Source: an uncultured Pelagibacteraceae bacterium
GTDB taxonomy: Bacteria > Pseudomonadota > Alphaproteobacteria > Pelagibacterales > Pelagibacteraceae
Direction of reading: 5' to 3'
Length of the DNA: 64,000 bases
Assembly: GCA_902609675.1 (NCBI GenBank)
Contig: CACLST010000002.1
Span: 33,794 to 97,793, forward strand
Positions 47,724-62,485 of the stretch are shown here, piece by piece. The notes under the pieces are model-generated. The model was not told the origin of the DNA and searched no databases. It saw nothing but the letters and a program-made list of their open reading frames with translations. The position numbers were made by a program, and so were the translations under genes. How positions within the stretch are numbered: the stretch's first letter is position 1; each line of letters opens with the position of its first letter.

Positions 47724-48577
47724 TAAATTGCTCCTTTTTTCTCGGTTGGTTCTAAAGCATCATAATTCCAGAGTTTTTTACCTGCAACGACTTTTGTCAT
47801 CTTTGAAACATCAAAATTTTCACCGATCTCGGCTACTTTAAGTTTTCTTTTGATCCAATCTATATCACTTTTTGTCATAGGTGACTCAATCGCATCACTA
47901 CCAAATGATCCAATTTTTCCACCCACATAAATAGTTCCATCATACATGGAGTCTCCAAGGTTTATACCGACATTACCTAAAATTATTATTCTTCCTCTTT
48001 GCATCATAAAGCCAGTGAATGCTCCAGCGTCACCACCAACAATAATTGTTCCACCTTTTTGATCAATTCCTGTTCTAGCGCCAACGCTACCCTTACATAT
48101 TAAATCTCCACCTCTAACTGCTGCACCAAAACATGATCCTGCATTTTTTTCTATTACTACTTTTCCTGCCATCATATTTTCTGCACATGACCATCCAACT
48201 CTACCATTAATTCTTACCGTTGGACCATCAATAGAACCAACACCAAAATAACCCAAACTTCCTTCAAATATTAAATTTAATTTATTTAACACCCCAACAC
48301 CTAAACTATGTTTTCCTTGTGGGTTCTTTATAACTATTGTTCCATAACCTTGACTCATAAGTTCATCAATTTTTTTGTTTGCCTCTTTACAATCTAGATC
48401 ATTTACATCAAGATCAATTCTTTTATTAAAATCAACATCATAAGTTCCCCAATAGTAAAAGTTTTCTGCCTCATCAGGGTTAAAAAATTTTTGTTGAGTT
48501 TTTCCTGTTAAGACTTCACTATGAAGTCCCATTGATTGTGCTTTAGTTTTTTTCTCAGTCGTTTTTAAATTTGCCAT
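47723..48577 (-). CDS. mgsB: N-methylglutamate synthase GXGXG subunit-like (MgsB)
   Basis: This 284-residue protein has the right-handed beta-helix GXGXG domain of glutamate synthase, with repeated GxxGxxxGxxxxGG turns (GKVVIEKNAGSCFGAAVRGG, GGDAGAFTGFMMQRG, GDSMYDGTIYVGGKIG). It acts as the structural subunit between the amidotransferase and FMN subunits. It overlaps the amidotransferase gene by 13 bp and the FMN gene by 1 bp, so subunits are likely made in equal amounts. Confidence 0.85.
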   Translation of the reverse strand: MANLKTTEKKTKAQSMGLHSEVLTGKTQQKFFNPDEAENFYYWGTYDVDFNKRIDLDVNDLDCKEANKKIDELMSQGYGTIVIKNPQGKHSLGVGVLNKLNLIFEGSLGYFGVGSIDGPTVRINGRVGWSCAENMMAGKVVIEKNAGSCFGAAVRGGDLICKGSVGARTGIDQKGGTIIVGGDAGAFTGFMMQRGRIIILGNVGINLGDSMYDGTIYVGGKIGSFGSDAIESPMTKSDIDWIKRKLKVAEIGENFDVSKMTKVVAGKKLWNYDALEPTEKKGAI

Positions 48578-49506
48578 ACTTTAACCTCTCCATCAAATGG
48601 ATCATATGTGTCTATCTCTTGTGGTAAAATAGATCTTATAGCTATTTCCTCAGAACCCATTGCTACTAAATCATCTGACTCGTATAATACCAATGGTTTT
48701 GCAGCCATCGTATCTTTTGCCATTCCTAAAGAATCTTTTGTTGCAACAAAATATGTAAATACACCATCTAAGCCAGATAAACTATCTTTCATACCTTCTT
48801 CCAAAGATGCGCCATTTCTCATTTTTTCTGCTAAATAAACTGCAATTAATTCAGAGTCACATTCAGACATAAATCTCATACCTTTATTCTCTAACACTCT
48901 TCTATTATTCCAATAGTTTGTAAGTTGACCGTTGTGTACAACTGATACATCACTGAAAGGATAACCCCAAAATGGATGAGCAGATTTAATATCTACGCCA
49001 GATTCAGTTGCCATTCTAGCATGTCCAATACCATGGGTTCCTTTAACTTTTGCTAGATCATATCTTTCAGAAACTGCCTGAGCATCTCCTAGATCTTTGA
49101 TTAATTCTAATGATTTACCAATAGACAATATCTCCACACTCTCTATGCTTTCGATTTTTTTTGAAAACTCCATTAAATCCTGATCATATTTCATTTCATA
49201 TCTGTAAGAGTAAGGAGTTAACTTTTCTTCTTTTACAACTGTAGCATTAAGATTTTTTAGCATCTGGTCGACAAGTTCTTTTCTTTTGTCATAAACACTA
49301 TCATCTTCATTAACTGATGTGCTTCCTTCTCCAACATTTTCCCCAACTTTAAATCTCATTATGAAATTTTCTCCATCATTATCTGCATAGAGAGCGTATC
49401 CAGTTGAGTCAGGACCTCTATGTTTTAATGCTTGAAGCATTAACTGTAATTCATTTCCTACATCAGAGGATTTTCCTCTATGGATTAGTCCCGCAATTCC
49501 GCACAT
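48565..49506 (-). CDS. mgsA: N-methylglutamate synthase glutamine-amidotransferase-like subunit (MgsA)
   Basis: This 313-residue protein is a class II glutamine amidotransferase with the N-terminal nucleophile cysteine in MCGIAGLIHRG (Cys2 after Met removal), LKHRGPDSTGYAL, GIGHARMATES and SVVHNGQLTNY. In N-methylglutamate synthase this subunit partners the FMN and GXGXG subunits. An ammonia-producing role in a Glx-type enzyme is the alternative. It is 22 bp downstream of the second glutamine synthetase-like gene. Confidence 0.85.
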   Translation of the reverse strand: MCGIAGLIHRGKSSDVGNELQLMLQALKHRGPDSTGYALYADNDGENFIMRFKVGENVGEGSTSVNEDDSVYDKRKELVDQMLKNLNATVVKEEKLTPYSYRYEMKYDQDLMEFSKKIESIESVEILSIGKSLELIKDLGDAQAVSERYDLAKVKGTHGIGHARMATESGVDIKSAHPFWGYPFSDVSVVHNGQLTNYWNNRRVLENKGMRFMSECDSELIAVYLAEKMRNGASLEEGMKDSLSGLDGVFTYFVATKDSLGMAKDTMAAKPLVLYESDDLVAMGSEEIAIRSILPQEIDTYDPFDGEVKVWQI

Positions 49507-49528
49507 ATTTTTTCCTTCCTAAAATTAC

Positions 49529-50998
49529 TTATGGTAGGCAATCCAAATAAGTATCTAGATCCCATTGAGTTGTTGCTCCTAAAAATCTTTCCCACTCATC
49601 ATTTTTATACCAATGAAAAATTTTATACATTTCATCTGGCATAGCAGATTGAATAACTTTGTCATCCGCCAATCTATCTAACGCTTCTCCAAGACTTAAA
49701 GGTAATTTTTTAACATTCTTTCCAGCTTTTTGAGCTTCATAAATATTTCTAGACTCAGGTTTTCCAGGATCAATATTATTTGTTATTCCATCATCAAAAG
49801 CTTTTAATAAACTTGCTCCCATTAAATATGGATTATGCATTGAATCTACGGATCTATATTCAAATCTTCCTGGAGCAGAAACTCTCAATCCACAAGTTCT
49901 GTTTTGATATCCCCAATCTGCATAAACAGGTGCCCAAAAACCTTGATCCCAAAGTCTTCTGTATGAGTTAACAGTTGATGAACCAATAGCTGTTAGTGCA
50001 GGCAAGTGTTTCATTACACCTCCAATAGATTTCAAACCAATTTTTCCTGGCAACTGGACATCTTTAGTATCTGGCATAAAAGTATTAGTACCACCTTCAA
50101 CATAACTGAAAACTTCGTCCATGCCTGGTAAAGATTTATGACCTAATTTATTTACTTTATCCTTTCCGCCTGTCCATAATGACATATTAGTATGACAACC
50201 ACTAGCAGAAACTCCCATGAAAGGTTTTGTCATAAAGCAAGCTATTAAATTAAATTCTCTCGCAACCTGAGCACAAATTTGTCTGTAAGTAGATAACCTA
50301 TCTGCATTTCTTAAAACATCATCATACATCCAGTTTAGTTCTAGTTGTCCAGGAGCGTCTTCATGATCACCTTGAATCATATCAAAGCCCATAGCTCTGG
50401 CGTATTCCATTACTTTCATAAATACTGGTCTTAAAGACTCGAATTGATCAATGTGATAACAATATGGTTTAGAAAAACCTTTTCCAGTTGGAGTGCCATC
50501 ATCGTTTCTAGTTAACCACATCATTTCTGGTTCAGTTCCAACTCTAAGTTGGTAACCATGTTTTTTCTTAAATTCATTAGCAATAATTCTTAAATTACCT
50601 CTACAATCAGATGTTAAGTGACCACCTGGATTTTCTCTTTCTTCTCTATTTCTAAAACAAGTTACAAAAACTCTAGCAACTTTTTTATCCCAAGGTAGTT
50701 GGCAAAATGTTTCTGGATCAGGTATTCCAACCAATTCTTTTGCTTCAGGACCATATCCAATGTAGTTGTTGTGACGATCTAAGAATAAGTTAGCTGTTGC
50801 TCCATAAACTAATTGAAAACCTTTTTCACATGTTCTTTCCCAATGATCTGCAGGAATTCCTTTACCAACAACTCTTCCTGTTACTGAAATAAATTGAAAA
50901 AAAATATAATCAATTTTTAGTTCATTTATTTTAGCTCTAACTTGTTTAACTAATTTTGCTCTACCTGGTTGATTAACATGTTTCTCTAGATCAGTCAT
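49529..50998 (-). CDS. Glutamine synthetase-family ligase (second paralog)
   Basis: This 489-residue GS-fold enzyme has VGTEPEMMWL, GDHEDAPGQLELNW, GCHTNMSLWTG and NRTCGLRVSAPGRFEYR, so the ATP/glutamate site looks intact. It diverges from the GlnT protein at 42588, lacks the GAGFAGFAAW block, and carries an extra N-terminal part. As the first gene of the mgs-like run, it could ligate glutamate to methylamine (GmaS) or another amine. The GmaS role is therefore contested between the two paralogs. It is separated from the FAD oxidoreductase gene by 67 bp. Confidence 0.82.
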   Translation of the reverse strand: MTDLEKHVNQPGRAKLVKQVRAKINELKIDYIFFQFISVTGRVVGKGIPADHWERTCEKGFQLVYGATANLFLDRHNNYIGYGPEAKELVGIPDPETFCQLPWDKKVARVFVTCFRNREERENPGGHLTSDCRGNLRIIANEFKKKHGYQLRVGTEPEMMWLTRNDDGTPTGKGFSKPYCYHIDQFESLRPVFMKVMEYARAMGFDMIQGDHEDAPGQLELNWMYDDVLRNADRLSTYRQICAQVAREFNLIACFMTKPFMGVSASGCHTNMSLWTGGKDKVNKLGHKSLPGMDEVFSYVEGGTNTFMPDTKDVQLPGKIGLKSIGGVMKHLPALTAIGSSTVNSYRRLWDQGFWAPVYADWGYQNRTCGLRVSAPGRFEYRSVDSMHNPYLMGASLLKAFDDGITNNIDPGKPESRNIYEAQKAGKNVKKLPLSLGEALDRLADDKVIQSAMPDEMYKIFHWYKNDEWERFLGATTQWDLDTYLDCLP

Positions 50999-51065
50999 AT
51001 TCCCCCTTAAGAATTTTTAGACCAAAAAGTTAACTGAAAATAAAACATCTGTCTACTCAGATAAA

Positions 51066-52391
51066 TTAGCTCCAAGGAAATGGACTATTAGATGTTGGGT
51101 GTAATTCACCCTTCTCGTAACGGTTGAATCTAAATGGTTTTAATAATTCACTCTCTGTTCCAAGAATTTCTTTTGCAACAAGTTCACCAACACCTATCAT
51201 TTTATATCCATGGTTAGAGTCTGCTATCATATAAACATTTTCTAAAAATCTATCAAAAATTGGAAATGAGTCTGGTGTCATGCATCCAAGCCCACCTGAA
51301 GGACCTTTTCTATATAAATCTGATTTTCCCTCAAATCTTTTTTGGCAATGAGCTAAAGCTGAACACCACATATCATTAAATGCTTCAGTTGTTTGATATT
51401 CAGGTGACTCTATTCCATAAGGATCAACATTAACTTGATCAAAATGTTTATCAACTATGTAAGGTGAAGTTCCACCTTGGACACCAAGCCCTTCAATATC
51501 TGGTTTATAATATATTCCCCAAATTTTATCTGTAATTAATTTTTTAGTTTTGTCTGAATATAAAGGAGCTGTTGAGTCTACATGGATTACAGGTGGCTGC
51601 TCACCATTGTCCATTTTTAAAAAATCTGCTTCTACACCAAGTACACCCTCTTGAAGCATCCAATATTTCCACATGTCTGTTTCGTGAATTCTGCCATCTT
51701 TACCTTTAATATTTGCAGTTTTAGGAAGTTCTAACATGTTCCAAAAATCTCTTGCCCAAGGACCTGCTCCAACAACAACTTGGTCACATTCTATTGTTCC
51801 TTTGTCTGTTTCAACTCCTGTAACGGCTTTGCTGTTACTTCCTCTTTTGAAACCAGTGACTTTAACACCTTTCATTACCTCAACACCATTTGAAGTAGAT
51901 TTATTTTCAAGTGCTTTAATTGAATCTTTATTAAAAGCGTATCCACCTTTTTTTTCATGAAGAACAGAAGTTATACCTTGTGCTTGCCAATCACTAAACA
52001 TACCTTTCATATATTTCATGCAATCTTTTTCACCTTCTATAAATTCAGACTCGTAACCAATTGCTTTTTGTTGTTCGTAAATAGTTGCAACATCTGCATG
52101 CATTACTTCTGGTGAAATCTGTAAATAACCAACTGCATTATATTTAAATGCTTTTGGGTCGCTCTCCCAAACTGAAACTGAATGAGCCATTAATTCTCTC
52201 ATTGCAGGCTGAAAATAATTATTTCTTACAACTCCACACGCAATACCACTTGCTCCAGCTGCAGTATCTTTTTTTTCTAATACTACAATATCACCTGGAT
52301 TTTTGTAAGTTTCGGAAAGTTTCCAAGCAGTACTTAGGCCGTGAATTCCCCCTCCAACGATTACTACTTTAGCTTTTGTCGGTAATGACAT
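51066..52391 (-). CDS. FAD-dependent oxidoreductase, sarcosine oxidase beta-like
   Basis: This 441-residue DAO-fold flavoprotein starts with the dinucleotide motif VVIVGGGIHGLSTAWKL, has KDTAAGASGIACGVVRNNYFQP, and ends with CMTPDSFPIFD and HGYKMIGVGELVAKEI. Relatives are sarcosine oxidase beta subunit, dimethylglycine dehydrogenase and the SoxB-like subunit of N-methylglutamate dehydrogenase (MgdA). Its place between the mgs-like genes and tdm supports oxidation of an N-methyl amine. The gamma, alpha and delta partners normally encoded together are absent from the window. It is preceded by a 97-bp AT-rich gap. Confidence 0.82.
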   Translation of the reverse strand: MSLPTKAKVVIVGGGIHGLSTAWKLSETYKNPGDIVVLEKKDTAAGASGIACGVVRNNYFQPAMRELMAHSVSVWESDPKAFKYNAVGYLQISPEVMHADVATIYEQQKAIGYESEFIEGEKDCMKYMKGMFSDWQAQGITSVLHEKKGGYAFNKDSIKALENKSTSNGVEVMKGVKVTGFKRGSNSKAVTGVETDKGTIECDQVVVGAGPWARDFWNMLELPKTANIKGKDGRIHETDMWKYWMLQEGVLGVEADFLKMDNGEQPPVIHVDSTAPLYSDKTKKLITDKIWGIYYKPDIEGLGVQGGTSPYIVDKHFDQVNVDPYGIESPEYQTTEAFNDMWCSALAHCQKRFEGKSDLYRKGPSGGLGCMTPDSFPIFDRFLENVYMIADSNHGYKMIGVGELVAKEILGTESELLKPFRFNRYEKGELHPTSNSPFPWS

Positions 52392-52488
52392 ACTAAAACA
52401 TTATTTTTTGAAAAGAGTTAAATATATAATTTTTTTTATATATAAAATTTAGAAATAAAAACTTATAGAACTTAGGATTTGCCTATTG

Positions 52489-52839
52489 TTAAAAGCTCAA
52501 ATTTTTAAGAGTAGATAAATAATCGTTAAATTCTGAGATAAACGAAGCACTTGGTTTTATATGTTTTTTTCTTTGATCTTGAGCGGTTTTTTCTAAATAA
52601 AAAAAACCTTTTTCACATGCCTCATTAATTATTAATGCAGATTTTGGTCTAGATGTTTTAAATAGTTTAGTTTTTAGCTCCTCTACTGATAAGTTCTGTT
52701 TTTGCTTAAATGCTGACATAACTAGAAGCATCATATGATAGTGAGAAGGTGATTTTCTAAAAAAATAGTTACTTGATGTGTGTGAAAGTTTCATTTGATC
52801 TTCCCAAAACTCTAACAAATCCTTAGTTGATTTAGCCAT
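52489..52839 (-). CDS. Small winged-helix-like (MarR-type) protein, candidate TMAO regulator
   Basis: This 116-residue protein has helices followed by SRPKSALIINEACEKGFFYLEKTAQDQRKKHIKPS, which reads like the recognition helix, wing and basic strand of small MarR/winged-helix regulators. The C-terminus (FISEFNDYLSTL) looks like the dimerisation helix. No enzymatic motif is visible. Its ATG overlaps the tdm stop (TAATG), so it is translated with TMAO demethylase. I infer a regulator of this cluster, possibly binding the palindrome upstream of tdm. I am not sure of the family. Confidence 0.55.
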   Translation of the reverse strand: MAKSTKDLLEFWEDQMKLSHTSSNYFFRKSPSHYHMMLLVMSAFKQKQNLSVEELKTKLFKTSRPKSALIINEACEKGFFYLEKTAQDQRKKHIKPSASFISEFNDYLSTLKNLSF

Positions 52840-55178
52840 TAAGATCTTACTTTAGTTTTCTTTGGATCGTAATGAGGAAATCCAACAATTTTTGCAGGTA
52901 TTCTTTTTTGATGTCCATCTATTTTTCCAATTTCAACATCATTACCTAATTCTGAGTGACCTACATCTATTCTGCATAATGCAATATTTTTATTTAATGT
53001 CGGAGAAATACATCCACTAGTTATAATTCCAACCTGAGATCTTCCAATATGAACGCAATCTCCATGATTTGCTATTTCTTTACCTATTAACTCTAGCCCT
53101 ACTAGTTTTTTTTGAGGATTTTCTTTTCTCTTAATTAAATTTTCTCTTCCAATAAAATCCTCTGTTTTGGATTTTAAAGGAACTGAAAACCCAATTCCTG
53201 CCTCAAACGGATCTTGTTGTCCGTCAAATTCATTACCAAATAAAATTAAACCAGCTTCAATTCTTAAAAGATCTAAAGCAGCAAAACCAGCTGGTATCAA
53301 ACCTTCATCTTTTCCTGCTTCCATTACCTTATCCCAAACTGCAGTAGCATTACTTGGATGACACCAAATTTCAAAACCAAGTTCACCAGTGTAACCTGTT
53401 CTTGAAACAATTAATGGTATTCCGTTTAATTCTTCCAATCGACAAATTGTAAATCTAAACCATTCCAATTCAGATATAGAGGGTTGGGTAGGGGGAGTAA
53501 AAATTATTTTTTCTAAAATTTTTCTGCTTTTTGGACCTTGTAAAGATAAATTATTTATTTGGTCAGTAGAATTTTTGATATGAACTTTATAATTTTTTTT
53601 CTTTGCTTGTTCTTTAAGCCACTCACCTCCATATTCATCACCACAAACCCATCTAAAACCATGGTCACTAAGTTTTAATAACGTTCCATCATCAAACATA
53701 GTTCCATTTTCATAACACATTGCCGAATAAACAATTTGACCAACTGAAAGTTTTTTTACATTTCGAGTTAATGTATAATTCATTAATTCTTCAGCATCTG
53801 GACCAAGAATTTCAAATTTCCTTAATGAAGATAAGTCAATTAGGACAGCGTCTTCTCTGCATGCATTGTATTCATTAATTACACCATGTTTTGTATAATC
53901 ATTTGGTAACCAAAAACCTCTAGCATCGACAAAGTTTCTAGTTAATTTTGATGTTCTTTCATAGAAACCGGTATTTCTTGTAAGTTTATTCTCTGAATCT
54001 GTTTTCATTCTAAAACCATACGATTTAGTAAATTCTTTGCTTTTCTCATAAGTTCTAACAAAAATATCAGTAGGGTTCCATCCATTACAGCTATCAATAT
54101 CACTAGGGCAAGCAGTAGTTCCACATGTTAAATCTTTTAGAGCTTTAAAAATGACGTAATCACCAGGTCTTGCATAAGACTCATCAGATGTAACAGAATT
54201 TTGACCTCCCGAAGATGTATTAAAGAAAAGATTAATTGCATGCCAACCTTTTTTTTCTTCTACACCATATTTTTTCATTGAGTCATTTAAATTGTCAGAG
54301 CAATTTGCATGACCAAAATATCCTGAGTCTTCGTAGTACTTTGAGGTACAAGCTAAATTAAATGTATCATGAATACCCACTGTATCTCTTACAACTTCTA
54401 CCAATGGCTCATGATCAGTATCATAGAATTTTGAAAATAAACCAGGACCAGGGAAAGTATGTCCCATAAAGGTTCTAGTAGTTTGCCAATCAAGACCTCT
54501 TTCTATACCTTTTTCAAGTTTAGCAGTATCGTATGCAACAAAATCTGAGCATTGTCTTCCCGTTGGTGTAATTATTTGAATATAGTCTCCAGCTTTAACT
54601 TGATATCCTGTTGCAGTTTTTCTATCTATATTAACTTCATAGTCAGGATCGTAAATTGGATCAGGGATTATTGAAAATTCTTTTTCAGAATTTTTAATTT
54701 TTGCTCTTTTAACTAATACAGTTAGATCTGAAGGTGGATTTTGATCATGAACAAGCATATCGGTTCCTGGAGCAGCAAAGATGCAATAACAGTTATCCTT
54801 CGAAGTTAGAACTATTTCTTCTCCTGCAGAAGTGTTTTTATCAAAAATTAGCGACGAAGTAGCTTTATCAATTTGCAAATTTCTTTTTTTTAATTGCAGC
54901 AAAGCTTGCATAGAACTCTCTTCTTTTTTAAAAAGTATTTTCCTTATCTCTGATGAATTTTTATTTTCTCTTAAATTTAAAATTCCCAATTCTGATTTTC
55001 CATGTTTATCGAAAATGTTTATTTCGCAAATTTGATTTCCCTCATTATTTATAATTTTAATTTCATCTTCAGGAAATATTTGAATACCAGTAATTCCACC
55101 TGCATTGACCACATACCTTTCAACTCCAGGTGGTAATACGTTTAAACCAGGTTCTTTAATACTTAAACTTGTTTGCAT
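52839..55178 (-). CDS. tdm: Trimethylamine N-oxide demethylase (Tdm): DUF1989 + GcvT domains
   Basis: Tdm converts TMAO to dimethylamine and formaldehyde (or passes the methyl to tetrahydrofolate through its GcvT half). This protein, 779 residues from MQTSLSIKEPG, has an N-terminal DUF1989/urea-carboxylase-associated region (about 1-390, with CGTTACPSDIDSCNGWNP as probable zinc site). A C-terminal aminomethyltransferase domain spans about 405-779 (GYTGELGFEIWCH, LLRIEAGLILFGNEF). This two-domain layout matches characterised Tdm. The track start adds 13 hydrophobic residues that I reject. It is divergent from tmoX, with the palindrome and promoter between them, and its stop overlaps the small regulator gene. 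Confidence 0.9.
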   Translation of the reverse strand: MQTSLSIKEPGLNVLPPGVERYVVNAGGITGIQIFPEDEIKIINNEGNQICEINIFDKHGKSELGILNLRENKNSSEIRKILFKKEESSMQALLQLKKRNLQIDKATSSLIFDKNTSAGEEIVLTSKDNCYCIFAAPGTDMLVHDQNPPSDLTVLVKRAKIKNSEKEFSIIPDPIYDPDYEVNIDRKTATGYQVKAGDYIQIITPTGRQCSDFVAYDTAKLEKGIERGLDWQTTRTFMGHTFPGPGLFSKFYDTDHEPLVEVVRDTVGIHDTFNLACTSKYYEDSGYFGHANCSDNLNDSMKKYGVEEKKGWHAINLFFNTSSGGQNSVTSDESYARPGDYVIFKALKDLTCGTTACPSDIDSCNGWNPTDIFVRTYEKSKEFTKSYGFRMKTDSENKLTRNTGFYERTSKLTRNFVDARGFWLPNDYTKHGVINEYNACREDAVLIDLSSLRKFEILGPDAEELMNYTLTRNVKKLSVGQIVYSAMCYENGTMFDDGTLLKLSDHGFRWVCGDEYGGEWLKEQAKKKNYKVHIKNSTDQINNLSLQGPKSRKILEKIIFTPPTQPSISELEWFRFTICRLEELNGIPLIVSRTGYTGELGFEIWCHPSNATAVWDKVMEAGKDEGLIPAGFAALDLLRIEAGLILFGNEFDGQQDPFEAGIGFSVPLKSKTEDFIGRENLIKRKENPQKKLVGLELIGKEIANHGDCVHIGRSQVGIITSGCISPTLNKNIALCRIDVGHSELGNDVEIGKIDGHQKRIPAKIVGFPHYDPKKTKVRS

Positions 55179-55213
55179 TTTTAAAAAATATTTAAAATTA
55201 TACAAAAGTATAA

Positions 55214-55248
55214 ACAAATTTATATATAAATTTTATATATACATTTGT
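55214..55248. promoter_or_regulatory. 35-bp near-perfect palindrome between tdm and tmoX
   Basis: Starting ACAAATTTATATATAAA on the left arm, the 35 bases pair with their own reverse complement around a central T at 55231, with one mismatched pair. It lies 36-70 bp upstream of the tdm ATG and ends 15 bp before the tmoX -35 box, so a dimeric regulator bound here could control both directions. AT-rich composition inflates chance palindromes, but 16 of 17 paired positions is unusual. Confidence 0.65.
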
Positions 55249-55262
55249 ATCTATTTTGCTAG

Positions 55263-55291
55263 TTGACTGTAACTTTAATAGAGGGGATACT
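55263..55291 (+). promoter_or_regulatory. Likely sigma-70 promoter of tmoX
   Basis: TTGACT and GATACT are separated by exactly 17 bp. The ATG at 55323 is preceded by an AAGGAAAGGG ribosome site, giving a leader of about 25 bases. This should drive strong expression of the binding protein. Confidence 0.65.
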
Positions 55292-55322
55292 TTAATCACT
55301 TAATATTAAGGAAAGGGAAATA

Positions 55323-56276
55323 ATGAAAAAAATAATATCTCTATTATCAGCTATGGTGATATCTCTTGTAAGTTTTGCAGGGATTTCAAACGCAGCAGAT
55401 AGTAAAAAACCAATTGTTATCCCAACTCATAACTGGTCAAGCCAAATTGTAATGGCTTACGTAATTGGCGGAATTTTTGAAAGTATGGGGAACAATGTAA
55501 AATATGTAAATGCTGACTCTCAAGCAGTTTATGAGTCGATTAGAATTGGTGATGTAACTATATCTCATGAAGTATGGGAATCTGCATTCGGAAAATCATT
55601 CACAACTGCTTTAGATAAAGGTGGTTTATTAGATATGGGTGATCACGAAGCTAGAACTCTTGAGGATATGGGATATCCAAACTGGGTTGTAGAAAAAGGC
55701 TTATGCCCAGGTCTACCAGACTGGACTGCATTAAAAAATCCTGATTGTGCGAAAAATTTCACAACACCTGATTCACCAGATGGAAAAGGTAGAATGTTAG
55801 AAGGACCACAAACATGGCATGGAGATTTAATACCTCAAAGAGTTGATGCTCTAGGACTAGGAGATCTATGGTGGGTTAAATTTGCTGGAAGTGCAGATGC
55901 ACTTTGGGCAGAGTTAGCTGCAGCTAAAAAAGAAGGAAGAGGAACTATCATATTTAACTGGACACCAAACTTTACAGATGGTGCTGGTTTTACATTTATC
56001 GACTTTCCTCCATACACAGCTGGTTGTAGACCAGAAGATGGTGGAGATGGAAAATGTGGTTCTCCGGATGGTTATTTAAAAAAAGCTGCGCATGAAGATT
56101 TTCCAAAAACTCATCCAGCAGCTGCAAAAACGTTTAAAAAAATGTCATTCTCTACAAGTCAAATTGGAGCAATGGCAGCTTTAGTTGATGTCGACAAAAT
56201 GACTCACGAAGATGCAGCAAAAAAATGGTTAGCTGACAATAAGAGTGTGTGGGAAGAATTTACACACGATCATTAA
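55323..56276 (+). CDS. tmoX: TMAO/betaine-type substrate-binding protein (TmoX-like)
   Basis: This 317-residue periplasmic protein has a signal peptide (MKKIISLLSAMV..., cleavage near GISNA, residue 24), then an OpuAC/ProX-type domain. Aromatic residues that could cage a quaternary ammonium group are seen in THNWSSQI, HEVWES and NWTPNF, and the FPPYTAGCRPEDGGDGKCG loop carries two cysteines. Divergence from tdm and linkage to tmm and a matching ATPase/permease support TMAO as ligand; glycine betaine or choline are alternatives. It has its own promoter and terminator, separating it from the rest of the transporter. Confidence 0.83.
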   Translation: MKKIISLLSAMVISLVSFAGISNAADSKKPIVIPTHNWSSQIVMAYVIGGIFESMGNNVKYVNADSQAVYESIRIGDVTISHEVWESAFGKSFTTALDKGGLLDMGDHEARTLEDMGYPNWVVEKGLCPGLPDWTALKNPDCAKNFTTPDSPDGKGRMLEGPQTWHGDLIPQRVDALGLGDLWWVKFAGSADALWAELAAAKKEGRGTIIFNWTPNFTDGAGFTFIDFPPYTAGCRPEDGGDGKCGSPDGYLKKAAHEDFPKTHPAAAKTFKKMSFSTSQIGAMAALVDVDKMTHEDAAKKWLADNKSVWEEFTHDH

Positions 56277-56297
56277 GGTTAATTAAATAAATTAAAG

Positions 56298-56332
56298 ATC
56301 TCTCCCAATTAAATTGGGAGAGATTTTTTTTT
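56298..56332 (+). terminator. Strong terminator after tmoX
   Basis: ATCTCTCCCAATT and AATTGGGAGAGAT form a perfect 13-bp stem, followed by a run of nine T (the first is the last base of the stem). This is a textbook intrinsic terminator, 21 bp after the stop codon. It isolates tmoX from the downstream genes. Confidence 0.93.
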
Positions 56333-56347
56333 CACCTCAAAAAAATA

Positions 56348-56809
56348 ATGGTAAAAGTATTTTATATAATATTGTTAAACTTTTTTATTTTCAATTTTAC
56401 TTATGCAAAAGACATAAGTATCGATGAAAATCTTAATTTAGAGTTTTTATGTGAGTTAGAAAAAAAAATTGTTAAGAATTCGGAATATAATTATAAAACT
56501 TTTCTAGCAAAAGACTTAAATGTTAAAAATTTAGATTCATTTCAAATTTATTCAAATAAACCTAGCACATTAATGGTAAATGGATTATCAAAATTTTTCT
56601 CTCAAAATTCAAATTTTGACGTAAAAATAGTAAATAAGGATGTAGTTTTGTTTAAAGCCTTTAATAATGAAAAAACTTATTCAGAATCTGCAATAATTAC
56701 AAGAAAATCAGGCGAATTAATTCACGAAATTACAAAAAATATAAATACAGAAAATTCGGAAAAAGATATCTCAATTTATATATGTAAGAATAAATCAAAA
56801 AATGCCTAA
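56348..56809 (+). CDS. Secreted protein of unknown function
   Basis: This 153-residue protein begins with a signal peptide (MVKVFYIILLNFFIFNFTYA, cleavage near residue 20). The mature part is lysine- and asparagine-rich with FLCELEKKIVKNSEYNY and a closing ISIYICKNKS; two cysteines may pair. I do not recognise a family. It lies right after the tmoX terminator and before the MORN gene, on a stretch that interrupts the TMAO importer genes. Confidence 0.6.
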   Translation: MVKVFYIILLNFFIFNFTYAKDISIDENLNLEFLCELEKKIVKNSEYNYKTFLAKDLNVKNLDSFQIYSNKPSTLMVNGLSKFFSQNSNFDVKIVNKDVVLFKAFNNEKTYSESAIITRKSGELIHEITKNINTENSEKDISIYICKNKSKNA

Positions 56810-56843
56810 TTTTTTTTTAAGAAATTTTGTGTAATATATTTCC

Positions 56844-57221
56844 ATGAAAAAGCTTATATTTTTTATACTTTTTTCGTCATTAATTACTTCTATAGCATTA
56901 GCAAGAAGCACAGGATGTAAAGAGGGAAATTGTGAAAATGGTTATGGCAAGTGGATTTACACAGACAAAACTACCTATGAAGGTGAATGGGTTGCAACAA
57001 AAAAACATGGCCAAGGAACCGAAACATGGCCGAATGGATATATTTACAAAGGTGAATTTAAAGAGAGTCAGTGGAACGGTATAGGAATTTTATTTTTTCC
57101 TGACGGTTCAACATATGAAGGTGAATGGGCCAATGGTTTTATGAACGGTAAAGGCACTTTTACTTGGTCAGATGGAAAACAAAAAACAGGTATTTGGAAA
57201 AATGGAAGTTTCCAAGAATAG
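56844..57221 (+). CDS. Secreted MORN-repeat protein
   Basis: This 125-residue protein has a signal peptide (LITSIALA near residue 20) and then at least three MORN repeats of about 23 residues (TYEGEWVATKKHGQGTETWP, YIYKGEFKESQWNGIGILFF, TYEGEWANGFMNGKGTFTW). MORN repeats form beta-hairpin arrays that bind membranes or partners. The cellular role is unknown. Its end overlaps the next ORF by up to 50 bp. Confidence 0.8.
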   Translation: MKKLIFFILFSSLITSIALARSTGCKEGNCENGYGKWIYTDKTTYEGEWVATKKHGQGTETWPNGYIYKGEFKESQWNGIGILFFPDGSTYEGEWANGFMNGKGTFTWSDGKQKTGIWKNGSFQE

Positions 57222-57747
57222 TTTTAAAACTTTGTCAGAGCCAGTCAAACAATTTGGTGGATTAATTAGTATAATTATTCTTATCTTTTTAACTTTTTTT
57301 ATTTTAAATAATATTTTTGGTGAAGGTGATGAACTGGTTGCTAAAATGAAAATTGAAGAAGAAAGAATAGCTCAAGAAAGAAAACTTAACAAGCTAATTT
57401 CTAGTCTTCCCTCAGGAGTTTTGGTTTCGTTTGATGGTACTGACAATTTTAAATTATCTGATGAATTATATGAAGCTGTTTGTAAGGCAACTAAGCTTAT
57501 ACCTCAACGTGCAATTATGGGTGCGAATTTTCTAAACTTTAGAGCTCATGAAATTTATACAATTAACGGAAATAAAATAGATGAAACATTTGTAAAATGG
57601 GACGATGAAAAAAATAAATGTTTTGCAGGTTTCGTTGTAAGTGGAAATAATGTTGGTGTAGATGAAACTGTAAAAGTAAGTGGAGAAGCTTTGAGTTTTT
57701 TAAGTACAGGTATTGATACAAGAGTTTATTTTATTAAAAATTTTTAA
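57202..57747 (+). CDS. Single-helix membrane protein of unknown function
   Basis: Read from the second in-frame ATG (57202, MEVSKNSF) this is 181 residues; the track start at 57172 overlaps the MORN gene more. A membrane helix lies at about residues 19-38 (GLISIIILIFLTFFILNNIF), followed by a glutamate/lysine-rich coiled segment and a periplasmic or cytoplasmic domain with two cysteines (VCKATKLIP, KCFAGFVVSG). I recognise no family. It is 66 bp before the TMAO importer ATPase and may be co-transcribed with it. Confidence 0.55.
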   Translation: MEVSKNSFKTLSEPVKQFGGLISIIILIFLTFFILNNIFGEGDELVAKMKIEEERIAQERKLNKLISSLPSGVLVSFDGTDNFKLSDELYEAVCKATKLIPQRAIMGANFLNFRAHEIYTINGNKIDETFVKWDDEKNKCFAGFVVSGNNVGVDETVKVSGEALSFLSTGIDTRVYFIKNF

Positions 57748-57813
57748 GGAGGAAATGTAACAAATTATAGAGATTTTATTTTATCTTAAATTCGTATAAC
57801 CTGAATATTATTT

Positions 57814-58845
57814 ATGTCTGAACCAGTAATTAAATGCCAATCTGTTTATAAAATCTTTGGAGCAAACGCTGAAAGAATGCTTAAAGAAGCAAATGGTAAT
57901 GTTGATGCAAAAACATTTCAAGAAAATGGATGTATTGTAGGAGTTAACAATGCTTCTTTTGAGGTATCTAAAGGTGAAATGTTAGTTGTAATGGGTTTAT
58001 CAGGATCAGGGAAGTCAACACTATTAAGGTGTATATCTAGATTAACAGACGCAACTGGTGGAAAAATTTTTATTGAAGGTCAAGACTTGCTTAATTTAAA
58101 TAACAAGGAACTTATTGATTTAAGAAGAAATAAAATGGGAATGGTTTTTCAAAGTTTTGCTCTACTTCCACATAAAACAGTTTTAGAGAATATTGCTTTT
58201 CCTCTTCAAATTAAGGGTATTAAAACTGAAGATAGTATTAATAAAGCAATGGATATGGTCAAACTTGTTGGTCTCGATGGAAGAGAAAATTATTTTCCAA
58301 GAGAGTTATCTGGAGGACAACAACAAAGGGTAGGAATTGCAAGATCATTGGCAGTTGAGCCAGATATATGGTTCTTAGACGAACCTTTCTCTGCATTAGA
58401 TCCACTTATAAGGAAAGAAATGCAAGATGAGTTTTTAAGACTTCAAGAAAAATTACAAAAAACTATAATGTTTATTACTCATGATTTTGATGAAGCCTTA
58501 AAACTAGCTGATCGAATTGCAATTATGAAAGATGGAATAATTGAGCAATTAGATACACCTGCGAACATTGTTTTAAATCCAGCTACAGAATATGTAAAAA
58601 AATTTACAGAAGAAGTTCCAAGGGAAAAAGTTTTATTAATTAAAGATGTAATGGATGAAATAACCTCTGACGACATGGGTGATATAAAAGTTTCAAAAGA
58701 CGAGATTATTGAAAATGTTGCTGAAAAAATATTAACACAAGAAAAAACAGTAGCTGTTACAGATGGCAAAAATAATATTGTAGGTTCAATTAATCCTGCA
58801 AAAATTATTAATACAGTTTTTGGGGGAAGAAAAAATAATCATTAA
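57814..58845 (+). CDS. tmoV: ABC importer ATP-binding protein, ProV/TmoV-like
   Basis: This 343-residue ATPase has Walker A GLSGSGKST near residue 65, signature LSGGQQQRVGIARSLA, Walker B FLDEPFSALDP, and a C-terminal regulatory region of about 90 residues with one CBS-like motif (AVTDGKNNIVGSINPAKI). It lacks the second full CBS of E. coli ProV. An N-terminal segment (KIFGANAERMLKEANGN) matches the quaternary-amine importer subfamily. It lies 3 bp before the permease and should pair with TmoX despite the 1.5-kb gap. Confidence 0.85.
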   Translation: MSEPVIKCQSVYKIFGANAERMLKEANGNVDAKTFQENGCIVGVNNASFEVSKGEMLVVMGLSGSGKSTLLRCISRLTDATGGKIFIEGQDLLNLNNKELIDLRRNKMGMVFQSFALLPHKTVLENIAFPLQIKGIKTEDSINKAMDMVKLVGLDGRENYFPRELSGGQQQRVGIARSLAVEPDIWFLDEPFSALDPLIRKEMQDEFLRLQEKLQKTIMFITHDFDEALKLADRIAIMKDGIIEQLDTPANIVLNPATEYVKKFTEEVPREKVLLIKDVMDEITSDDMGDIKVSKDEIIENVAEKILTQEKTVAVTDGKNNIVGSINPAKIINTVFGGRKNNH

Positions 58846-58848
58846 ATT

Positions 58849-61002
58849 ATGGAATTACTTAAAAAATATCCTAAATTGTTTCAATGGTTATTTTTATTAG
58901 CTGTATTTTTTGCACTATGCTTTGCAATTGATGTTCCTGAAACTTACAAATTTATTAGAGGACAAGCAGAATTTGTAAAAGATCCTAATCAGAGTGCCTT
59001 CGTATTTCTAGGTAAAGAGGTTAGATATTACGCTTTTGATGTTTTCTGGAGATTGCCACCATTACTTGGATGGCTTCCAATTTGGATAAATGATTCATTA
59101 TTCTTTTTAATGAATGATTGGATGCCAATGGAATTTTGGAATGAAGATACGCAGGAATATAAAACACGACCTTTAGTTTTACAAATAACTAGAAACCTAA
59201 CCGCATTTATGACTTTTCTAATAGAATTAATTAGAGAGATTTTATTAGGCGGTCTTGAAACAATTGTTGCTTTTACTAGTTGGGATTGGATTGATGCTAA
59301 TCCCTGGGCAGAATTACCAGGCTTACCTTGGACTATTGTAGCAGCAGGATCAGCGATACTTGCTTATAAGTTAGGAGGTAAAGGATTGGCCTTATATGCA
59401 CTTTTATCAATGACTTACATTTCAATATTTGGACAATGGAAACCGTCTATGCAAACACTTTCTTTTATATTAGTTGCAGCACCTCTTTCATTTATTTTTG
59501 GTTTAGGTTTGGGTGTTGCGGCATACAAAAGTAAAAGAGTAGAAAAAGCTTTATATCCAATACTTTTAGTTATGCAGACGATGCCCCAGTATGCGGTATT
59601 AGTTCCTGCACTAGTTCTTTTTGGGGTAGGAGACCATGCTGCAGTAATTATAACAATGATTGTTGCTGTGCCGCCAATGATACTATTAACTTTATTAGGT
59701 TTAAGGGCTGTCCCCCCAGAGGTAATTGAAGCTGGTAGAATGAGTGGATGTAGTAACTGGCAACTAATGTCAAAAGTATTAATTCCAACAGCGAGAAGAG
59801 ATATTTTAATAGGAGTTAACCAAGTTATAATGGTGTGTTTTTCTATGGCAGTTATCTCTGCATTTATAGGAGCAAAAGGTTTAGGTTTTAATTTATTATT
59901 AGCTCTAAATCAGTTGAATATTGGATTAGCATTAGAGGCAGGTCTTTGTATTAGTTTGATTGCAATTTTATTAGATAAGATGTCTTTAGCTTGGGCAAAT
60001 AAACAGGTTGATTATTTTGGTAATTTAAATTTTTTTCAACGAAATAAAAATTCATTATTCTTTGGAGTTATAGTAATAGTAGGTATTCTATTAGCTTACT
60101 TTGGATCAATTTATTTTAAAGACGGGTATAATTATTTATTTGAGGTTCCGCATAATAAAGGAATATCAACAGCAGACTTTTGGAATAAAGGTGTTGATTG
60201 GATATTTGATACTTTCTTTGTATATATAAAAGCATTTAACACTTGGCTAATTGTTGATGTACTCCAACCGATGAGAGCTTTATATTTGAGAATGCCAGCC
60301 GTAGCCACATTAGTTCTAGTCGTTGGAGCTGGATATTTAATTGGTGGAGTTAGATCTGCTTTAGTTGTTTGTGGTTTAACTTTATTTATAGCTCTAAGCC
60401 CATGGTGGGATAGAGCTTTAGTAACCACATACATGGCAACATTTGGTGTACTAGTATCTTGCACAATTGGATTTACTGTTGGAACTTTATGTTTTCAAAA
60501 TAAACATTCTACAAACTTTATGTTAAATATTTGTGATATATTTCAAACTTTTCCATCTTTTGTATATTTAATTCCTGTGATGATGCTTTTTGGAATTACA
60601 GATACTTCAGTTTTAATTGCTGTAATAGTTTATGCTACGATACCAGCAACAAGATACACAATTGAGGGTCTTAGAAGTGTTCCAGCTGGACTACATGATG
60701 CTGCAACGATGTCAGGTGTCACAAAGTTTCAAAGACTATTTAAAATAGAATTTCCATTAGCATTTCCACACATGATGTTAGGGCTTAATCAAACAATAGT
60801 TTTTGCATTATTTATGGTGATTATCGGGGCTTTTATTGGAACAGAGGATTTGGGTCAGTATATTTTAAAAGCTTTATCAGATAAAAAAGGTGCAGGTATT
60901 GGGTTAACACTTGGAATTTGTGTTGCATTTATTGGACTAATTTTTGATAATTTAATTAGAACTTGGGTAGGACAAAGAAAAAAACATTTAGGTATAGACT
61001 AA
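58849..61002 (+). CDS. tmoW: ABC importer permease, double-length ProW/TmoW-like
   Basis: This 717-residue integral membrane protein contains two ProW-type permease units in tandem. The first is near residues 180-390 and the second near 460-710, each with its own EAA-type loop (AGRMSGCSNWQLMSKVLIPTA; AATMSGVTKFQRLFKIEFPLA). A single chain could supply both membrane halves of the importer. It follows the ATPase gene by 3 bp and is 4 bp before glpK. It most likely transports TMAO or another methylated ammonium compound with TmoX and TmoV. Confidence 0.87.
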   Translation: MELLKKYPKLFQWLFLLAVFFALCFAIDVPETYKFIRGQAEFVKDPNQSAFVFLGKEVRYYAFDVFWRLPPLLGWLPIWINDSLFFLMNDWMPMEFWNEDTQEYKTRPLVLQITRNLTAFMTFLIELIREILLGGLETIVAFTSWDWIDANPWAELPGLPWTIVAAGSAILAYKLGGKGLALYALLSMTYISIFGQWKPSMQTLSFILVAAPLSFIFGLGLGVAAYKSKRVEKALYPILLVMQTMPQYAVLVPALVLFGVGDHAAVIITMIVAVPPMILLTLLGLRAVPPEVIEAGRMSGCSNWQLMSKVLIPTARRDILIGVNQVIMVCFSMAVISAFIGAKGLGFNLLLALNQLNIGLALEAGLCISLIAILLDKMSLAWANKQVDYFGNLNFFQRNKNSLFFGVIVIVGILLAYFGSIYFKDGYNYLFEVPHNKGISTADFWNKGVDWIFDTFFVYIKAFNTWLIVDVLQPMRALYLRMPAVATLVLVVGAGYLIGGVRSALVVCGLTLFIALSPWWDRALVTTYMATFGVLVSCTIGFTVGTLCFQNKHSTNFMLNICDIFQTFPSFVYLIPVMMLFGITDTSVLIAVIVYATIPATRYTIEGLRSVPAGLHDAATMSGVTKFQRLFKIEFPLAFPHMMLGLNQTIVFALFMVIIGAFIGTEDLGQYILKALSDKKGAGIGLTLGICVAFIGLIFDNLIRTWVGQRKKHLGID

Positions 61003-61006
61003 AATT

Positions 61007-62485
61007 GTGAAAAAATTTCTTGTTGCTATCGACCAAGGCACAACATCGTCTAGAGCAATTCTCTTTGATTTAAATGGCAATATAAAATTTACATCTCAGT
61101 TTGAATTTAACCAATACTTTCCGAAAAATGGATGGGTAGAACATAATCCAAATGAAATTTGGTTAACAACTCTTAAAGCTTTAAAAAAAGTAATTAAAAA
61201 AGTATCTCTACTAAAAGGAAAAATATTAAGTATTGGAATAACCAACCAGAGAGAGACAACTATTCTATGGAACAAGAAAACGGGTAAACCAGTATACAAT
61301 GCAATTGTTTGGCAAGATAGAAGAACTCATGAGTACTGTGAAAAGCTTAAGCAAAAAAAATATGAAAATATTTTTAGAAGAAAAACTGGTTTATTTATTG
61401 ATCCATATTTTTCAGCTACTAAAATTAAATGGATCTTAGAAAACGTAAAAATTTCGAAGAAACTTCAAAAATCTAATAATTTATTATTTGGCACTGTTGA
61501 TACTTTCTTAATTTGGAAACTAACTAACGGACAACATCATTTAACAGAGGCAACAAATGCAAGTAGAACAATGTTGTTTAATATAAATAATAACACTTGG
61601 GACAAAGAAATTTTAAAAAAGCTCAATATCTCAAAAAGTATTTTACCTGATGTAAAAAATTCAGCAGATAATTTTGGATCAACAAATAAAAAAATAATTG
61701 GATATGAAATTCCTATATCTGCAGTTTTGGGAGATCAACAAGCTGCAGCTGTAGGACAATCTTGTTTTAAAAAAGGCTCTATTAAAAGTACTTATGGCAC
61801 AGGTGCTTTTGTAATAATGAATACTGGGTCAAAAAAAATTTTTTCAAAAAATAAATTACTAACAACAATTTGTTACAGATTAAACGGAAAAAATACTTTT
61901 GCTCTCGAAGGTTCGATTTTTATCGCTGGAGCAGGTGTTCAATGGTTAAGAGATAAGTTAAAATTAATTAATAATGCTTATGACACAGAACAAATTGCTA
62001 AATCAAAAAAAAATAATGAAGGTGTCTATGTTGTACCAGCTTTTAGTGGACTGGGAGCTCCATACTGGAGACCTGACGCAAGAGGAGTTATAACTGGATT
62101 AACTAGAGATAGTGATTGGAAAACCTTAGTAAGAGCAGTTATAGAATCTGTTGCATACCAAAGCTATGATCTATTTAATGCCATGAGAAAAGATGGATTA
62201 AAACCAAATATAGTAAAAATAGATGGAGGAATGGTCGAAAACGACTGGTTTTCACAGTTTTTGGCAAATATTATTGATATTAAAACAGAAAGACCCAAAG
62301 TTTTGGAAACTACAGCACTTGGAGTTGCTTTATTTGCTGGATACCAAATAGGAATATTTAAATCTTTACATCAAATAAAAAGAAAATGGAAAAAAGATAG
62401 AACCTTTAAACCTAAACTAAGTTCTACAATTAGAAAAAAACTATTGAATGGGTGGAAATTGTCAGTTGATAAAACCTTATTGTAA
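61007..62485 (+). CDS. glpK: Glycerol kinase
   Basis: This 492-residue FGGY-family kinase phosphorylates glycerol to sn-glycerol 3-phosphate. DQGTTSSRAILFD, TNQRETTILWNKKTG, WQDRRT, and GTGAFVIMNTG match GlpK closely and the length is usual. The start is GTG. It is 4 bp behind the TMAO-type permease, so methylamine uptake and glycerol use may share a transcript. A dinucleotide-binding protein, possibly glycerol-3-phosphate dehydrogenase-like, begins at 63935. Confidence 0.95.
   Translation: MKKFLVAIDQGTTSSRAILFDLNGNIKFTSQFEFNQYFPKNGWVEHNPNEIWLTTLKALKKVIKKVSLLKGKILSIGITNQRETTILWNKKTGKPVYNAIVWQDRRTHEYCEKLKQKKYENIFRRKTGLFIDPYFSATKIKWILENVKISKKLQKSNNLLFGTVDTFLIWKLTNGQHHLTEATNASRTMLFNINNNTWDKEILKKLNISKSILPDVKNSADNFGSTNKKIIGYEIPISAVLGDQQAAAVGQSCFKKGSIKSTYGTGAFVIMNTGSKKIFSKNKLLTTICYRLNGKNTFALEGSIFIAGAGVQWLRDKLKLINNAYDTEQIAKSKKNNEGVYVVPAFSGLGAPYWRPDARGVITGLTRDSDWKTLVRAVIESVAYQSYDLFNAMRKDGLKPNIVKIDGGMVENDWFSQFLANIIDIKTERPKVLETTALGVALFAGYQIGIFKSLHQIKRKWKKDRTFKPKLSSTIRKKLLNGWKLSVDKTLL

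Follow-up and report, generated by a model that had tools for sequence, protein, structure and literature searches.

The spacer between the divergent genes tdm and tmoX contains a 35-bp palindrome that is present as a single copy, is strictly constrained and vertically inherited in one clade, and is absent elsewhere. Comparison of related sequences leads us to regard it as the central part of an AT-rich cis-regulatory block of 44 bp, with a small 116-residue protein encoded beside tdm acting at a different place, a short dyad in the tmoX leader. This is our preferred reading, held tentatively and at somewhat less than an even chance. The window (i.e. the whole stretch of 64,000 nucleotides that was analysed) comes from an uncultured Pelagibacteraceae bacterium whose 987-kb genome is about 71% complete. 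Trimethylamine N-oxide (TMAO) is the fish-odour compound, and the SAR11 bacteria, whose use of it feeds volatile amines, are among the most abundant in the ocean surface. The features at the centre of the analysis are as follows.

52839-55178, reverse strand: tdm, trimethylamine N-oxide demethylase (1103.1 bits against the NCBIfam equivalog NF053776, above its cut-off of 1100).
55323-56276, forward strand: tmoX, periplasmic binding protein of the TMAO transporter, with an OpuAC domain (name from PMC8918994 and PMC5069720).
52489-52839, reverse strand: gene for a 116-residue winged-helix-like (MarR/SarX-like) protein, its start overlapping the tdm stop.
55214-55248, unstranded: the 35-bp palindrome, varying in relatives at its outer positions 55214 and 55215, with the inner 31 bp fixed.

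Past the gene of the 116-residue protein lie genes for an FAD oxidoreductase, a glutamine-synthetase-like protein and an amidotransferase-like protein, so that the cluster agrees in outline with the published SAR11 TMAO cluster (PMC8918994). In strain HTCC1062 TMAO induces tmoX, tdm and gmaS (PMC8918994), and a regulator of tmoX and tdm is therefore to be expected. A literature search for regulators of TMAO genes found them in Ruegeria only, and none for SAR11; in Ruegeria the pathway has an activator TmaR (AraC type) and a repressor TmoR (GntR type) (PMC13390433). Work cited in PMC5069720 reports TmoX as one of the ten genes with the highest expression in metaproteomes from the Sargasso Sea. 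Directly after tmoX, at 56294-56328, there is a strong terminator-like inverted repeat, followed by a MORN-repeat gene and the transporter genes; relatives have similar inverted repeats.

The palindrome, ACAAATTTATATATAAATTTTATATATACATTTGT, is located between tdm (reverse strand, ATG at 55178) and tmoX (forward strand, ATG at 55323). The sequence-only reading had placed its centre at 55231 with 16 of 17 pairs matched, and this is correct; the sole mismatched pair is 55220/55242. Ranked with every other palindrome of 17-base arms in the 64 kb, it shares first place with the tmoX terminator (both 16/17), and the next best has 14/17. The 142-bp spacer is 82% AT with TA runs. Sixteen pairs were attained in 2 of 5000 dinucleotide shuffles of this spacer, and at least 16 in 6 of 5000 second-order Markov versions. 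Folded as single-stranded DNA the palindrome has an energy of -7.7 kcal/mol, compared with a mean of -2.65 for shuffles (z -3.85). A relaxed pattern, searched with as many as 3 mismatches, finds it just once in the 987-kb genome, and there is no scatter of further copies, either there or in 60 relatives. A search of those relatives with a 43-bp block gave one match, inside the tmoX spacer of genome G031 (the same place as locus L003).

We compared 103 tdm-tmoX spacers, including that of the window; some loci that appear in two collections are the same genome. The palindrome block is present in 36 of them, and all 36 group as a single clade in the tdm tree and again in the tmoX tree. Columns were counted in 28 distinct spacer sequences (32 loci aligned) of this Pelagibacter clade, and these define the following block.

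55216-55259, unstranded: clade-invariant AT-rich block AAATTTATATATAAATTTTATATATACATTTGTATCTATTTTGC, with 2 of 44 columns variable in the 28 distinct spacers, both singletons.

The adjacent spacer between the block and tdm varies in 19 of 35 columns (Fisher p 8e-7), and the fourfold codon sites of tdm and tmoX in the same genomes vary at 158 of 221 (p 1e-17). The DNA of the block is therefore constrained. The constraint is lopsided: the fixed stretch extends 11 bases past the right arm of the palindrome (55249-55259), where the sole variable position is 55252, in one sequence. At the other side variation at 55214 and 55215 breaks the outer pairs of the palindrome, 55215 being C in 15 of the 28 distinct spacers and T in the other 13. 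The mismatch at 55220/55242 is never repaired in the clade. Conservation of the spacer across SAR11 thus holds for close relatives and fails in other clades, which have either unrelated long AT-rich spacers or spacers shorter by 40 bp (mostly 99-118 bp). A TATATAT run is found in 61 of 63 distinct long spacers, including those of the palindrome clade. Some individual spacers have features of their own. That of locus L101 has an apparent tandem duplication of the tmoX promoter, with two TTGACTAT elements about 50 bp apart. At loci L029 and L030 the spacer and leader are of the kind (type B) that precedes tmoX in sister strains, and the binding protein under them is 48% identical; the coding region seems to have been exchanged while the promoter stayed.

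The block lies among predicted promoter elements of both genes.

55263-55291, forward strand: predicted tmoX promoter TTGACT-N17-GATACT (-35 at 55263-55268, -10 at 55286-55291).
55197-55212, reverse strand: candidate -10 elements of tdm, deduced from the sequence (TATACT at 55212-55207, TATAAT at 55202-55197).

The tmoX promoter has sigma-70 hexamers at a spacing within 16-18 nt, matching the consensus at 9 of 12 positions, and most relatives retain TTGACT and CATA(A,C)T-like hexamers. No -35 element of tdm is recognisable in the sequence; the palindrome occupies the expected place. The earlier description of the palindrome as lying between the two promoters is thus accurate for tmoX and less so for tdm, whose likely -10 would put the palindrome on its -35 region. 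Its right end is about 15 bp upstream of the tmoX -35, and its centre is at about -67 from the predicted tmoX start, clear of the core promoter, a geometry that does not readily suggest simple repression of tmoX by a protein at the palindrome. Note that a promoter scan gave no more sites here than in shuffles; promoter and motif calls are weak in this region because the sequence is AT-rich.

The start of the 116-residue gene overlaps the end of tdm, and we infer that the two are co-transcribed. The AlphaFold2 model of the protein (pLDDT 77.5, pTM 0.67) has the order helix-helix-helix-helix-beta-beta-helix, and with this predicted model as query Foldseek matched MepR, MarR, SlyA and SarX in the PDB with probability 1.00, E down to 6e-5 and TM about 0.5-0.65. 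The description of the protein as winged-helix-like is borne out by this predicted fold, which is closest to MepR, MarR and SarX. No curated family profile in Pfam or NCBIfam scored above cut-off; weak sequence-profile matches were to SarX (0.088) and MarR_2 (0.011 at best, 3 of 18 members). The gene adjoins tdm in every SAR11 clade of the genus that was examined, including those that do not have the palindrome, where the protein has 72-90% identity and the TSRPK stretch at the predicted recognition helix is invariant. Genomes G043 and G023, which have the small gene and no tmoX match, stop at a contig edge and are uninformative. Other loci differ in arrangement. Loci L149 and L150 (genus g4) have tdm and tmoX in tandem, in a cluster without the small gene. 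At L145 and L147 (family f2) a 63% relative lies in an unrelated sulfatase/dienelactone-hydrolase-like cluster with no tmoX nearby, and neither a matching dyad nor a matching palindrome was found at two loci of this family. A distant 138-residue relative at L152 (6508-6924) stands beside other catabolic genes, with a match to Staph_reg_Sar of 3.7e-4 that is below the cut-off. At L151 (G004:C12:28927-29125) a broken remnant of the gene, interrupted by stop codons, lies at the end of a contig.

A second symmetrical element is found in the tmoX leader.

55299-55310, unstranded: leader dyad CTTAATATTAAG, located where tmoX transcription is predicted to start and kept from clade to clade with paired changes.

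The core, TTAATATTAA or TTAATATATTAA, is retained in 96 of 103 leaders, and in 95 of these 96 the outer pair is C-G or A-T, with one mismatched. Most of the leaders without the core have an altered dyad at the same place. Counting leaders scored as core-less as a state, parsimony on the tdm tree gives 10 changes of the outer pair and 12 of core length. An operator should be present wherever its regulator adjoins tdm and tmoX, and the dyad is largely so distributed; one exception is G046 (locus L021), where the 116-residue gene is kept and the tmoX start and leader are different. The exact 12-mer is unique in the 987-kb genome. MarR-type operators with TTAA-like arms are known. Two other explanations of the dyad were rejected. 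The pattern of TTAATATTAA plus a Shine-Dalgarno-like sequence occurs elsewhere at about the control rate, which does not fit a general 5' feature of SAR11 genes. An RNA hairpin would have 0 to -1.2 kcal/mol in four of five leaders, about that of shuffles, with the dyad unpaired in two; in the window sequence it has -0.8 kcal/mol (z -1.0). Because the RNA hairpin is weak we prefer a DNA site. The dyad is our best operator candidate, stronger than the palindrome, and the 116-residue protein more plausibly acts there.

The sequence-only reading had instead paired the protein with the palindrome, as a ligand-sensing repressor. In this form the protein would be a repressor, responsive to TMAO, of tdm and tmoX alike, with the palindrome as its operator, and clades without the palindrome would have a different operator sequence. 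The predicted winged-helix fold, the conserved linkage to tdm, the single genomic copy and strict conservation of the inner 31 bp, and the induction by TMAO in HTCC1062 (PMC8918994) are all in keeping with this. The palindrome is nevertheless confined to one clade, while a protein with the same TSRPK sequence is kept beside tdm in clades that do not have it; the palindrome is therefore not a general operator of the protein. Furthermore its outer positions are not kept, the leader dyad tracks tmoX and the small gene better, and 35 bp is long for one MarR-type dimer. The pairing is thus unsupported and we consider it rather unlikely. A ligand-responsive repressor role for the protein is itself plausible, and on this distribution would be better placed at the leader dyad.

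The intergenic region 52392-52488, before the FAD oxidoreductase and glutamine-synthetase genes, has its own nearly invariant AT-rich block in the clade. The two blocks share the sequence TATATATAAAATTTA.

55227-55241, reverse strand: TATATATAAAATTTA, first copy (the genome has two that are exact).
52437-52451, forward strand: TATATATAAAATTTA, second copy, between the 116-residue gene and the FAD oxidoreductase/glutamine-synthetase-like genes, within the second clade-invariant block.

The exact sequence thus occurs twice in the 987-kb genome, once per block; with one mismatch allowed, matches in the genome are no commoner than those of a control. Read in the direction of the downstream genes, the second block agrees with the palindrome block in 20 of 23 bases. 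This likeness was reached in 0 of 100 dinucleotide shuffles and in 1-2 of 300 Markov sequences. Its significance is limited to the window clade and L084, and does not extend to clades B and L047. Strict co-evolution of the two blocks was also considered and rejected, the spacer-by-region matrix not being clearly diagonal, and a type-C motif, TATATATAWWTTTTTAGWWCTA, was rejected as a regulon motif, with no match at a TMAO locus in 61 genomes scanned. The likeness suggests that a shared factor may serve both blocks.

That factor could be another dimeric regulator or a nucleoid protein, encoded elsewhere, for which the palindrome is a site, binding also before the oxidoreductase and glutamine-synthetase genes. 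There are two related invariant blocks in one pathway, and the regulators of Ruegeria, TmaR and TmoR, are neither of them MarR-like (PMC13390433). Against this, the likeness of the blocks is one between AT-rich sequences and is weak in other clades, and we think this explanation unlikely. That the palindrome is a chance product of promoter DNA conserved for other reasons, its symmetry having no function, accords with the AT content and TA runs of the spacer, the unrepaired mismatch and the frequent variation of the outer positions, and is improbable given that 2 in 5000 spacer shuffles reach 16/17 and that the next-best place in the 64 kb, terminator aside, has 14/17.

In the preferred reading, the 44-bp block would have become fixed a single time, in a Pelagibacter clade, in the DNA that separates the back-to-back promoters of tdm and tmoX. 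It may provide an upstream contact region for both, covering the place of the missing tdm -35. Part of the symmetry of the palindrome could be due to an AT-rich element (TAAAWTTTATATATA) that faces in both directions and has a related copy ahead of the genes that come next in the pathway. A point against this reading is that the inner 31 bp show the same degree of constraint as the remainder of the block, and a dedicated dimeric regulator could also act on the palindrome. For the response to TMAO, the likelier reader is the 116-residue MarR/SarX-like protein, at CTTAATATTAAG on the tmoX start, where a bound dimer might block initiation until released by a ligand. A broader proposal is that a previously undescribed minimal MarR/SarX-like regulator runs the SAR11 TMAO regulon from the start-site dyad of tmoX, while the divergent promoters are coupled by a second AT-rich element, which takes the form of the 35-bp palindrome in one clade and recurs ahead of the glutamine-synthetase-like genes; we consider this possible, if on the doubtful side. 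The outcome is one particular protein and two particular DNA sites as candidates for the control of TMAO use in SAR11.

Three known systems may be compared. In the marine alphaproteobacterium Ruegeria pomeroyi the TMA/TMAO regulon of TmaR and TmoR controls tdm and methylamine genes, which are induced by pathway intermediates (PMC13390433). The SAR11 locus has a small MarR/SarX-like gene beside tdm instead, and on reading the open reading frames at 48565-62485 no AraC- or GntR-type gene was found among them. Regulation of the MarR/SarA type (MepR, MarR, SlyA, SarX) is similar in the predicted winged-helix fold of the 116-residue protein, in the position of its gene directly after one whose promoter region it may control, and in the palindromic operator candidate at the tmoX start site; it differs in that the protein has no curated family match. 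Divergent promoters that share AT-rich UP-like DNA resemble the locus in having back-to-back promoters with an AT-rich block between them. Unlike such DNA, the block does not, on sequence reading, clearly match the UP consensus at the distance where this would be expected, and it is far more constrained than its AT content alone would demand.
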